Shown in pieces: positions 3,848-32,746 of a DNA stretch of 36,002 nt (position 1 is its first letter; each line of letters starts with the position of its first letter). The position numbers and the translations under genes are program-made. The notes beneath the pieces were generated by a model. That model ran no database searches and was not told the origin of the DNA. It was given only the letters and a program-made list of their open reading frames with translations. The DNA lies in assembly GCA_017889675.1 (NCBI GenBank), contig JAGGAA010000003.1:1-36002 (forward strand). Reading direction: 5' to 3'. The DNA comes from Bacillota bacterium (GTDB lineage: Bacteria; Bacillota; Negativicutes; Sporomusales; Sporomusaceae).

Positions 3848-3891
3848 AACTTAAATGCCGCCCGTAGTGGGCGGCATTAAGTTATTTTTTT
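3848..3891 (+). terminator. Intrinsic terminator after the lipoprotein gene
   Basis: A 15-bp stem (arms 3848-3863 and 3869-3883, one bulged A, five-base loop) is followed by ATTTTTTT. On the minus strand the same hairpin directly follows the spoVAF stop codon, but with a poor T-run, so it may serve both convergent genes. Confidence 0.85.
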
Positions 3892-5402
3892 GTATTACTG
3901 TTACCCTCTTTGGTATCTTCATCTTCTTGTACACCGGCAGTGTTAAGTCGATCCTTATCTTGCGGTTTGAGCACTGCGGGCCGCAAGATCTTGTTTGGTA
4001 TGGGGAGACGAAATAATACATCTTTCATCGCATTAAAATTGAAAGGCAGAGCCGGCCATAAGTAAGGAATATTAAAGGATTTTGTTGTTAGCATTAATAG
4101 AAATACTGCAAATAACCCTCCAAGTAAGCCTGGCAGTTTAAACAGCATGACTAAAGTAATAATGATAACCCGAAAGAGTCGTATTGCCATAGCAAATTCC
4201 ATACTGGGAGTAGCAAAAGCACCGACTGCAGCTACTGCAGTATAAAAAATAGTCTCATTGCCAAATAGCCCAACCTTGGTGGCAATATCGCCCAGCATGA
4301 AGGCCCCAATAAAACCGAGAGCAGTAGACTGCGCCGTTGGAACATGCACTGTTGCCATTCTGACTAACTCAACGCCAAATTCTGCTAATAGAAATTGGAT
4401 ACCAATAGGTATAATCCCTGACTCCTGTGGACCAAGGAACGCAAGCGACTCAGGTAATAATTGACGATTCAATACTAGTGCTAACCATAAAGGCGGCAGA
4501 ATTAAAGATAGTAACACACCAGCCAACCTAATGAGTCGCAGATAGGAGCCAATAACCACATTCTGATGAAATTCTTCGACGTGTTGTACATGATGCCACA
4601 GTGTTGTTGGCAAAATCATGATATTAGGTGAAGTATCCACAATTATGCATACATGACCTTCTAGCAAGTGGACTGCTGCTACATCAGGACGTTCCGTGTA
4701 CCGTACTTTAGGTAAAGGATTCCACTTATTGCCGCCGACAATGTATTCTTCAATAGCCTTTTCTGCCATAGGTACGCCATCAATATTGATATTGTTAATC
4801 CTGTCTTTAACGGTAGTAACTAACTCTGTATTGGTGATATCTTTAATGTAGCAAACAGCAATGTCGCATTGAGACCGTGTACCAACCTTAACTATTTCAA
4901 ATCTCAAATTAGGATCGCGTAACCGCCTGCGGATTAATGCAGTGTTAAATACGATGGTTTCGACAAAAGAATCACGCGAGCCTCTTGTAACTTTTTCAAT
5001 GTTAGATTCGGCAGGTGCACGGGCGGGATAAGCGCGGGCATCTATTACAATCACTTGTTCGGCACCATCCACAAAAAAGAGCATCTCGCCTGATAAAAGA
5101 CTAGTTATTGCATCATTCATATTTGCTACTAATTTGGTTTGTGAATGGGTTGCTCGTGAATAAAATAATTTGTCCAGCGTATTAATTGTCAATTCTTCCT
5201 GGTTATAGGCAGTCAATTCTTCCAGTACATTTGATAACACAACATCATTAGTCATACCATTTATCGAAAAAGAAGCCGCACGTTTCCGCCCTGCTTTGTA
5301 TTCACGAAAAACTATATCAAATGTTTCGCCAACCCCAAGTTTGTCTTTTATATAATTTATATTGCTGTCAATTTCTTTGGCAATTGTTTTTTCCTCAGCC
5401 AT
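3882..5402 (-). CDS. spoVAF: Stage V sporulation protein AF (GerA-family membrane protein)
   Basis: SpoVAF is a GerA-type subunit associated with the SpoVA dipicolinic-acid channel of the spore inner membrane. The product has the family layout: a soluble N-terminal half (with NTALIRRRLRDPNLRFE) and a C-terminal half with about five hydrophobic segments (LLSLILPPLWLALVLNR onward), ending in a charged tail. The ATG at 5400-5402 overlaps the spoVAEA stop by 8 bases; a GTG 12 bases upstream lies too close to the ribosome site. The 506-residue length fits the family. It is the last gene of the spoVA cluster, as in Bacillus subtilis. Confidence 0.93.
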   Translation of the reverse strand: MAEEKTIAKEIDSNINYIKDKLGVGETFDIVFREYKAGRKRAASFSINGMTNDVVLSNVLEELTAYNQEELTINTLDKLFYSRATHSQTKLVANMNDAITSLLSGEMLFFVDGAEQVIVIDARAYPARAPAESNIEKVTRGSRDSFVETIVFNTALIRRRLRDPNLRFEIVKVGTRSQCDIAVCYIKDITNTELVTTVKDRINNINIDGVPMAEKAIEEYIVGGNKWNPLPKVRYTERPDVAAVHLLEGHVCIIVDTSPNIMILPTTLWHHVQHVEEFHQNVVIGSYLRLIRLAGVLLSLILPPLWLALVLNRQLLPESLAFLGPQESGIIPIGIQFLLAEFGVELVRMATVHVPTAQSTALGFIGAFMLGDIATKVGLFGNETIFYTAVAAVGAFATPSMEFAMAIRLFRVIIITLVMLFKLPGLLGGLFAVFLLMLTTKSFNIPYLWPALPFNFNAMKDVLFRLPIPNKILRPAVLKPQDKDRLNTAGVQEDEDTKEGNSNTKK

Positions 5403-6000
5403 GACTAATGTCACTCCGTTTCAGTATCTCTTCAATTGCTCTCCGGGTGATGGGAGCACCCCGACTAAGATCGTCATGTTTATCCATTTTCCCGATGTCG
5501 CCAACACCGATAATAACCGGTATTTCAACATCATTAAGCACATCCACAGTATCACCAGTAATCACCGGTTGGCAGATACAATCCTTTTTGGTTTTTATCT
5601 CGCCTTTCTTATCAACTGAAAGATCAATTACATGACCTTGGCAGTCAATACAGGCATCAGCATGGACTCCATCAATCCCAGTAGTATTAGAAGCTACGGC
5701 TACTGCTCCAAGGACTTCAATGTCAGGATGATTGGCAACATACTCAAGCGCCTGTTCTCCTTCGGCTTTTTCGCTGTGACCTTTATCATCAAACATAACT
5801 AACACCGGATCATAGGGGACGGTTTTCAAAAGCTCTACGATTTTTTTGCCACTGATGGGGGTTGGATTACCTGCTGAAGCTGAAATGCAGCGTAATCCCA
5901 AAGAGGACCCTATTGTTTCAACGGCTTGTTGAGCAACCTTGTCTCCATCAGTAACAAGAATAACCCGGATCTTTTTATTAATTTCAGTTACCTTGTCCAA
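5395..6000 (-). CDS. spoVAEA: Stage V sporulation protein AE, soluble subunit (SpoVAEa)
   Basis: This 201-residue soluble protein matches the SpoVAEa family in size and in motifs such as IRVILVTDGDKVAQQAVE, the stretch DPVLVMFDDKG, and the C-terminal GAPITRRAIEEILKR. It has several cysteines (ACIDCQGH and DCICQP). Its biochemical role in the SpoVA system is not established; it is found in spores. The TTG start has a GAGG site 7 bases upstream. The gene sits between the Gln/Asn-rich gene and spoVAF, and overlaps spoVAF by 8 bases. Confidence 0.92.
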   Translation of the reverse strand: MDKVTEINKKIRVILVTDGDKVAQQAVETIGSSLGLRCISASAGNPTPISGKKIVELLKTVPYDPVLVMFDDKGHSEKAEGEQALEYVANHPDIEVLGAVAVASNTTGIDGVHADACIDCQGHVIDLSVDKKGEIKTKKDCICQPVITGDTVDVLNDVEIPVIIGVGDIGKMDKHDDLSRGAPITRRAIEEILKRSDISHG

Positions 6001-6708: not shown

Positions 6709-7065
6709 TCATTTACCTTTTGGATTAAACACAATTGCTATGGCCAGGCCGAAAACGACGGCAGCAGTTATGCCGGCTGCCGTTGCTTTAACAGCTCCGG
6801 TAAATATTCCCCAAAACCCTGCTTTGTTTACTTCTTCAATAGTGCCGGAGACTAGGGAGTGACCAAACCCAGGTAAGGGAACCGTTGCTCCTGCACCACC
6901 AATATCAATCAACGGCTGATATAGACCTAAACTGCTGAACACACAGCCTAAGACGACAAATAGTACTAAAACATGAGCAGGTGTAAGCGGGGTGAGATCC
7001 ATGAGCAACTGCCCAAGTACACAAATCAAACCGCCGATGACAAAGGCCATAAGATATGTTTGCAA
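6709..7065 (-). CDS. spoVAEB: Stage V sporulation protein AE, membrane subunit (SpoVAEb)
   Basis: SpoVAEb is a small polytopic membrane protein of the SpoVA channel that moves dipicolinic acid into and out of the spore core. The 118-residue product has the hallmark FVIGGLICVLGQLLMD at the N-terminus, then GAGATVPLPGFGHSL, and ends in two hydrophobic helices with GIFTGAVKATAAGI. It is paralogous to SpoVAC and here is complete, giving an internal yardstick for what the neighbouring SpoVAC lacks. The start is a TTG 12 bases after GGAGG, a rather long spacing. Confidence 0.94.
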   Translation of the reverse strand: MQTYLMAFVIGGLICVLGQLLMDLTPLTPAHVLVLFVVLGCVFSSLGLYQPLIDIGGAGATVPLPGFGHSLVSGTIEEVNKAGFWGIFTGAVKATAAGITAAVVFGLAIAIVFNPKGK

Positions 7066-7083: not shown

Positions 7084-8016
7084 TCACATTTCGATCGCTA
7101 CAGCATGCGCAATACAGGGTATAGATTCTTTTTGTTGATATGATGTTGTACTATGCAAACTACCTGTACCGACAAGTAGTACCTTATGCAGCTTTTGTTG
7201 CATAAGCAATCGGTAAATATAGCCGGTAAATACTATCGCTGAACTGGCACAACCACTGGCACCGGCATGGGCATCCTGATCTTTACTGAAAATCATGCAG
7301 CCACAATCTTCATAATTTGTCGATAAATCTACACCTTTTGCTTTAAACAGCTCGATAACCAACGCTTTACCGACACTGCCAAGATCACCAGTGTAAATCA
7401 TGTCATAATAATTTGGCTGGCGGCCAGAGTCGTCAAAATGATGCCATAACGTATCAGCAGCTGCAGGGGCCATTGCCGGTCCCATTGCGTTAGGATCCTT
7501 GATCCCCATGTCTACTATTTTACCCACTGTTGCTGCTGTAATCCGCGGTCCATTGCCAATAGCAGAAATAACTACAGCACCTGATCCTGTCACTGTCCAC
7601 TGCGATACCATTGGCCGTTGTACACCCTGTTCTGTGGGAAAACGGTACTGCCGTTCGGCTGCATCATGGTGGCTAGAAGCGGCGGCAACAATCTTATTGG
7701 CAAATCCTCCATCAATAAGAGTAGACCCTACCAGCATACTTTCTGCCAAAGTTGAGCAGGCACCATACATACCTAAAAAAGGGCGTCCAATACCTCTAAT
7801 CGCAAAATGGGTACTCATTAACTGATTAAGCAAGTCGCCGGCAAGTACATAATCAATATCATCAATAGCACTAGTTTCTTTAAATACGGCTGTTTTTATT
7901 GCCCATTCCATCATGGTGGATTCGCATTTTTCCCAGCTGGAATTATTATCAAGAGTATCTTTGAGTATTCGGTCATAGAACTCAGCTAAGAGGCCTTCCC
8001 CTTCCATCGGCCCCAC
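7084..8016 (-). CDS. spoVAD: Stage V sporulation protein AD, 5' end disturbed
   Basis: SpoVAD is the thiolase-fold, dipicolinic-acid-binding subunit of the SpoVA complex. The family is clear from GACSTLAESM, TVTGSGAVVIS, NAMGPAMAPAAADT and the C-terminal QQKESIPCIAHAVA. The listed start is a GTG without a ribosome site, falling inside the conserved segment IVGPMEGEG. Upstream in the same frame the homology continues for about 20 more codons (QQSIVFASPPVITSTAN, matching the usual SpoVAD N-terminus). However, no ATG, GTG or TTG precedes it before a stop, and this stretch overlaps the end of spoVAC. The natural start therefore appears to have been deleted. Confidence 0.9.
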   Translation of the reverse strand: MGPMEGEGLLAEFYDRILKDTLDNNSSWEKCESTMMEWAIKTAVFKETSAIDDIDYVLAGDLLNQLMSTHFAIRGIGRPFLGMYGACSTLAESMLVGSTLIDGGFANKIVAAASSHHDAAERQYRFPTEQGVQRPMVSQWTVTGSGAVVISAIGNGPRITAATVGKIVDMGIKDPNAMGPAMAPAAADTLWHHFDDSGRQPNYYDMIYTGDLGSVGKALVIELFKAKGVDLSTNYEDCGCMIFSKDQDAHAGASGCASSAIVFTGYIYRLLMQQKLHKVLLVGTGSLHSTTSYQQKESIPCIAHAVAIEM

Positions 8017-8033
8017 GATATTGGCTGTACTTG

Positions 8034-8393
8034 TTATAACTGGTGGCGAGGCAAAAACAATACTTTGTTGTCCGCTACAATTGAATTGGCAAAACCAGTA
8101 ATCGGTACAATGGAACCAGCTCCTGCAAGGCGGCCTAGTTCATCATAAACTCCTAATCCAGTAAACAAAGCACTCAAGAATATTAGTACAACCGAAGTCG
8201 GCCCAGCAGCTTCTTTGTTACTAAATCCCAAACTCATAAAATAATTCATAAAAAACTGGCCTAACATACATATTAAACCACCGACAATAAATGCCCATAT
8301 TACATTTTTCAGAATAGGGGTTTTGGGTTTTAGTTGTTCAAATTTTTCCTGATATTGCTGTTGCTCAGTCTGACTGACTTTACTGTCAAACAT
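8034..8393 (-). CDS. spoVAC: Stage V sporulation protein AC, C-terminally truncated by a deletion
   Basis: SpoVAC is a membrane subunit of the SpoVA channel; in Bacillus it also acts as a mechanosensitive channel. The start ATG at 8391-8393 has a strong GGAGGT site. The first 108 or so residues are normal (AFIVGGLICMLGQFFMNY, then AGAGSIVPITGFANSIVA). After that, where the family and its paralogue SpoVAEb continue with two more helices, the frame runs 11 residues through what is spoVAD coding sequence in another frame and stops. The 119-residue product is about 30 to 40 residues short of the family's usual length of roughly 150. It is probably non-functional unless a second copy exists. Confidence 0.85.
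   Translation of the reverse strand: MFDSKVSQTEQQQYQEKFEQLKPKTPILKNVIWAFIVGGLICMLGQFFMNYFMSLGFSNKEAAGPTSVVLIFLSALFTGLGVYDELGRLAGAGSIVPITGFANSIVADNKVLFLPRHQL
8065..8078 (-). other. Apparent deletion junction joining spoVAC to spoVAD
   Basis: Reading leftward, SpoVAC homology ends at the codons for SIVA and SpoVAD homology begins at GQQSIVF in a different frame. Roughly 40 codons of spoVAC, the intergenic gap and the first few codons of spoVAD are missing (an estimate from family lengths). It could be a true deletion or an assembly error. Confidence 0.7.
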
Positions 8394-8423
8394 GGGTATG
8401 TCACCTCCACACGAGTATTTTCT

Positions 8424-8473: not shown

Positions 8474-8674
8474 TTAGTGGTGGATCTGGAAAGCAATCTT
8501 TACATCTGCTTTGTATTCTTCAATATGTCCTTTGCCAACTTTCGCGGTAAAATTGGTGACTTCTACTCCCATAATGTCGTCTACAGTTTTAGATGCTTCT
8601 AAAACTGCATTATCTACTGCATCAGTCCAATTATGGTGGGAAGTTCCTACTAGCTCAATGACTTTTACAACCAT
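8474..8674 (-). CDS. Dodecin (small flavin-binding protein)
   Basis: Dodecins are about 66-residue proteins that form hollow dodecamers binding flavins, thought to store or protect them. The product matches in length and layout: a first strand VVKVIELVGTS, a helix with WTDAVDNAVLEASKT, and paired strands ending ADVKIAFQI. The Trp at residue 16 is close to the position used for stacking flavin in some dodecins. The ATG has an AGGGGGT site. It lies downstream of sigF and just before spoVAC, where Bacillus carries spoVAA and spoVAB, so expression in the forespore is plausible but inferred. Confidence 0.9.
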   Translation of the reverse strand: MVVKVIELVGTSHHNWTDAVDNAVLEASKTVDDIMGVEVTNFTAKVGKGHIEEYKADVKIAFQIHH

Positions 8675-8694
8675 TATATTACCCCCTGTAATGA

Positions 8695-31890: not shown

Positions 31891-32746
31891 TTATTGGCTG
31901 GTAACTGCAAAATAAGCAGCACCTGTTGCATTGTCAGGACTATAACTAGGTTTAGGAAAGTATAATTTTGCAAGCCCGATATCTTCAAGCTGCTTGAAGA
32001 GGTAGTTTCTGAGAAATTGATTCGCAGTTACGCCACCAACCAGTAATACATCAGTAAGACCAGTGCTGGCAATAGCCTGTTTTATCATAGCAGTCACAGC
32101 TTTGGCAATACATAACTCAACGCCAGCGGCAATTGTGGCTGGCGCAATACCTTGTGCCACTAGCTTGCGAATATGGGTCTCCGGGCCGGCAAAACTTACA
32201 GATGCTTCACGCACTGTTACAGGCACGTGAAGCGCCGGTTCGTATGCCTGCAGCGCCAACGCTTCCAGGTGAGCTCCGGCCGGAAAGTTTAGCCCTAAAA
32301 GAACGCCAATGCGATCCACTAATTGTCCGGCATGAATGTCCTTTGTACCGCCCAGAATATCAATAGACAGACGCTTTATGTCAGGTGTAGTTGTATTTTT
32401 TTTAGTTGCTCGGACAATCTCAGTTGTTCCACCAGATAAATGCACAGCTAGAAAGCTGGGAGCAGTAGGGCCACCAGCAGACCAAAGCCCGGCTAATATG
32501 TGATTTTCCTGATGACTTATACGATAAAGCGGGATATTCTGGGTAAGCGCGAGCACCTTAGCATAGCCTTCGCCTACCAAAAAAGCTGGCATATAGGAAT
32601 CAGGTAATGGCCGAGGAAAAGCTGATACCCCTATAGCATTAAAGCATAGGGGCTTGTCAATCGGCAACTAGTTGAGCATGCTCATCAAGTATAGCCACCG
32701 AAGTAGTATAACAGCTGGTATCTATCCCTAATGAAACCTTCATCAT
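31891..32746 (-). pseudogene. TsaD-like (Kae1/M22 glycoprotease family) gene broken by an internal deletion
   Basis: The start at 32746 overlaps the nusB stop and gives MMKVSLGIDTSCYTTSVAIL ... LVAD, a typical N-terminus of the TsaD-like paralogue family, then stops at 32657-32659. Another frame (31891-32667) continues with the rest of the protein: AIGVSAFPRPLPDSYMPAFL, SHQENHILAGLWSAG, VHLSGGTTEIV and VLLVGGVTANQFLRNYL. Between the two parts the family normally has about 40 residues (including a RGLRQSEA-like motif), which are absent. A deletion with frame change, not a single-base slip, explains this. A TTG-started C-terminal fragment of 258 residues could still be made. This paralogue is not the essential TsaD itself. 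Confidence 0.75.

Follow-up and report, generated by a model that had tools for sequence, protein, structure and literature searches.

The sigF-linked spoVA operon studied here raises a simple question: has a spore former lost the end of spoVAC together with the start of spoVAD, or were the two genes joined on the way from DNA to contig? The window, meaning the whole stretch of 36,002 nucleotides that was analysed, is the entire contig C96 of a Sporomusa sp. draft (2.69 Mb, 382 contigs, 58% complete), and its closest relatives are Sporomusa silvacetica, Sporomusa sp. KB1 and S. ovata. The operon lies on the minus strand in the order spoIIAA, spoIIAB, sigF, a dodecin-like gene, spoVAC, spoVAD, spoVAEb, spoVAEa and a GerA-family spoVAF-type gene (Table 1); the names outside the spoVA genes (spoIIAA, spoIIAB, sigF and dodecin-like) are those that we presume from reading the sequence. 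The small dodecin-like gene sits between sigF and spoVAC, at about 8480-8680 of the minus strand.

Alignment with S. silvacetica, Sporomusa sp. KB1 and S. ovata shows that a single clean block of 168 bp is absent at 8073/8074, and DNA identity to these relatives is 85-90% on either flank. The absent block comprises the last ~44 codons of SpoVAC and its stop codon, a spacer of ~20 nt that carries the ribosome site, and the SpoVAD start codon with the first few codons. The original prediction, that a deletion had taken the end of the one gene and the start of the other, is thus borne out in the assembled sequence, and its guess of 100-200 bases agrees with the alignment. SpoVAC begins with the ATG at 8396, resembles its relatives through TGFANSIVA, loses its frame at 8073/8074, where SpoVAD codons are read in another frame, and runs on to a chance stop at 8034; it matches the Pfam family SpoVAC_SpoVAEB (PF03862) only in part, and the ~44 missing residues fit the predicted loss of the last SpoVAC helices, present in the complete paralogue SpoVAEb. 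The SpoVAD frame is homologous to its relatives from GQQSIVFASPP on and matches its domain over the full length (PF07451, 476 bits; TIGR02845, 448.7 bits against a cut-off of 411.8). No start codon precedes its conserved N-terminus; a start-like codon first occurs at 8016, a GTG within the conserved segment. The change of frame in SpoVAC, its missing last helices and the lack of a SpoVAD start codon had been foreseen from the sequence. Either side of the junction, SpoVAC and SpoVAD share 90-92% identity with KB1, and neither carries any further lesion.

Table 1. Positions in the window of the spoVA genes, of the junction between spoVAC and spoVAD, and of a second clean gap
Feature	Position	Strand	Basis
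Junction; ~168 bp of the relatives absent, placement ambiguous by 2-3 bp	8073..8074	-	Alignment to relatives
spoVAC; 3' end missing, ORF continues out of frame to a chance stop	8034..8396	-	PF03862, 1-78 of 117
spoVAD; lacks start codon, ribosome site and first few codons, the rest complete and conserved	7084..8073	-	PF07451, 1-329/329
spoVAEb; complete SpoVAC paralogue	6709..7065	-	PF03862, 2-117
spoVAEa (SpoVAE)	5395..6000	-	PF14097
GerA-family (spoVAF-type) gene	3882..5414	-	PF03323
Another clean gap, of 107-113 bp, in a TsaD-like gene (31891 to ~32745) whose frame it shifts	32657..32658	-	Alignment to relatives

The relatives carry the ordinary arrangement. The sigF-linked spoVA operons of S. 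silvacetica, KB1 and S. ovata are identical to that of the window in gene content, order and orientation; they differ from it in having ~168 bp more, a complete SpoVAC (~151 aa), a spacer of ~20 nt and a SpoVAD that begins with ATG. Both genes are complete in all eight congeners, in each of which SpoVAC spans at least positions 1-116 of the PF03862 model. Both genes could be located at 56 other loci, with some genomes counted twice; at 55 of these both are complete, the two matches lying mostly 11-72 nt apart, and the remaining locus is not comparable. None of the relatives compared over these 56 loci has the joined form, and a shared ancestral arrangement was therefore rejected. The comparison with the nearest relatives that had been proposed as a check thus returned two complete genes in every case in which they could be compared, with ~168 bp more in S. 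silvacetica, KB1 and S. ovata. Relocation of the missing piece was also considered and set aside, as the ~168 bp, sought across the rest of the assembly, gave no match of significant score in any other contig. Because it is sharp and missing from every relative, the 168-bp gap is far from a chance difference.

The junction is not the only one of its kind. The comparison was extended to a sample of 61 contigs (384 kb in all); 127 kb of this sequence could be aligned to 1.25 Mb of KB1, and gaps were counted as clean when their flanks abut within 8 bases. This yielded 14 clean gaps, from 67 to 518 bp long, and 11 of them remove coding sequence; this amounts to about one per 10 kb, in unrelated genes, and two or three of the non-coding ones may be insertions specific to KB1. 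The sampled contigs are without Ns (four contigs were left out), and scaffold gaps made of N runs were thus discarded as a source. The 11 coding gaps include both window sites, 8073/8074 and 32657/32658; the latter frameshifts a TsaD-like gene of the carbamoyltransferase family, near a nusB-like gene, that is complete in the three close relatives. The genes that are cut have nothing in common. By our reading, the KB1 products concerned are presumably a U32-type peptidase, a molybdopterin-type dehydrogenase, a porin with an S-layer domain, an HsdR-type subunit, FlhA, EF-P, a penicillin-binding protein and a formate dehydrogenase (two cuts). In EF-P, the conserved C-terminal ~34 residues are gone at the clean gap and foreign codons follow (L186, G000 contig C28, ~2264); the formate dehydrogenase-like genes have gaps of 157 and 176 bp within 1.3 kb of each other (L189, G000 contig C31, ~1176 and ~2479). 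The deletion in spoVA is not special to spoVA, as like gaps break many other genes of this assembly.

As controls, 44 kb of S. ovata and 40 kb of S. silvacetica (84 kb together) were aligned to KB1, and no gap was found there in the coding sequence of conserved genes. If the rates were equal, the chance that all eleven coding gaps fall in the present assembly would be about 0.004. The differences that the controls do show are a non-coding gap of ~101 bp and a transposase-like block of 1.7 kb, both of them insertions in KB1. This transposase-like block of KB1 corresponds to ~19730 of the window and is missing from the window, S. ovata and S. silvacetica alike. The window contig itself has two clean gaps longer than 100 bp; over the same region there is none specific to KB1 or to S. 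ovata, and none specific to S. silvacetica inside the part of the region compared.

We propose that the 8073/8074 junction is most likely a recurrent join error of the assembly or the library, to which we give a probability of about 0.8 from the comparison of sequences. What favours an error of assembly is that clean gaps of this type turn up again in unrelated genes of the present assembly and are lacking in the relatives. In such an error, a short stretch of ~70 to 520 bp would be skipped and its flanks fused without Ns, during either library preparation or assembly; chimeric reads or library molecules, amplification chimeras and local re-assembly are candidate steps. In the source population, spoVAC and spoVAD would then probably be ordinary, complete genes. 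At two junctions (C92/C25 and C119/C105), the overlap between contig ends is exactly 99 bp, as a de Bruijn assembler leaves it; a plain k=99 graph would not be expected to join flanks that share only a few bases, and this counts against a join error. Multiple-displacement amplification, in which inverted chimeras dominate, is mildly disfavoured as the source, since no inversions were found.

A second point against a join error comes from five long essential genes, dnaE, polC, ileS, valS and secA, which contain no clean gap over ~15 kb. With 1.3 gaps expected in that length, zero arises about 27% of the time, and thus the observation does not decide. SecA had at first been a candidate for an additional cut, its match being split at model position 473/511, and was dropped, as the protein is complete (840 aa) and the gap is in the model.

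The same intact essential genes can be held in favour of the next reading, namely a genuine recent 168-bp deletion in the strain or in part of the population, which would inactivate spoVAC and block the normal initiation of spoVAD. We consider it unlikely. In its favour, the junction is clean, lies inside the contig at least 8 kb from either end and contains no Ns, and a second locus could compensate for the loss: six of the eight congeners have a second gene pair of the SpoVAC/SpoVAEb family away from the sigF-linked operon (for example G001:C2:217371-219106, with equivalents in five other Sporomusa genomes). Against it, no relative has the deletion, and gaps like it interrupt unrelated genes at a rate of about one per 10 kb, in the present assembly only. 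The original prediction had offered a second spoVA cluster as a way out; the congeners lend this idea some ground, but neither a second spoVAC nor a second cluster was found in the assembly, which covers ~58% of the genome.

Nor do the sampled contigs look like a genome in decay. By a protein-based count, 108 of the 119 aligned genes are intact; the clear gene breaks are the clean gaps themselves, the few stop calls sit in frames that resemble shadow ORFs, and one such call in a doubtful frame was flagged in the control genomes as well. The deletions come without accompanying stops or small frameshifts, and pseudogenes made by point mutation are almost absent, which also speaks against a genuine deletion. 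A real loss of the SpoVAC C-terminus and the SpoVAD start, as one event in a burst of short deletions without repeats, with a second spoVA cluster or spores free of dipicolinic acid, appears more doubtful still. The crippled SpoVA channel that had been suggested is accordingly less well supported than an assembly error, given the clean gaps in unrelated genes.

Two further readings fare worse. A functional minimal channel, with SpoVAC cut short and SpoVAD initiated at GTG 8016, would fit the good conservation of what remains of both proteins; nevertheless, the end of this SpoVAC consists of out-of-frame codons, the part of the family found in all relatives is gone, a start at GTG 8016 omits the conserved N-terminal segment of SpoVAD, and both genes are complete in all but the one locus that could not be compared. 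We regard this unusual channel, which the original prediction had also raised, as very improbable. A k-mer collapse between repeat copies flanking the missing piece would likewise leave a clean gap, but the edges at 8073/8074 have at most 3 bases in common in register (in KB1), far below any assembler k-mer, and it can practically be dismissed. Indeed, no gap edge has a repeat longer than 5 bp (measured in KB1), and for this reason the gaps cannot be put down to repeat recombination or to k-mer repeat collapse. The earlier suspicion of an assembly collapse is thus the best supported of its readings as regards an error of assembly, given the recurring gaps, and fails as regards the strict collapse of a repeat.

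The immediate consequence is one of caution. With genes corrupted by about one clean gap in every 10 kb, those that look truncated or missing in this assembly should not be given a biological meaning. A real deletion, on the other hand, would allow a test of whether a spore former of the Negativicutes manages without its main dipicolinic-acid channel. SpoVAC and SpoVAEb form a membrane complex in which SpoVAD is the cytoplasmic plug (PMC13059800), and spoVAC mutant spores are devoid of dipicolinic acid and heat-sensitive in Clostridium difficile and unstable in B. subtilis (PMC4959285); thus, if the deletion is real, this operon would be expected to load dipicolinic acid no longer, giving spores without dipicolinic acid unless a second spoVA cluster serves.

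Such an arrangement has a counterpart in the Bacillus cereus group, which has two SpoVA loci, spoVA1 and spoVA2 (PMC13059800). The six Sporomusa congeners with a second SpoVAC/SpoVAEb-family pair resemble this group, although the likeness is one of family only, and the present assembly, at ~58% of the genome, differs in showing no second locus. For the junction itself, there is a parallel with metagenome drafts, in which local assembly errors without read support make genes incorrect or incomplete (PMC7111523). Those errors are defined by missing read support, whereas the present junction is judged from the comparison of assembled sequence alone; in both, short faulty joins within draft contigs spoil protein-coding genes.
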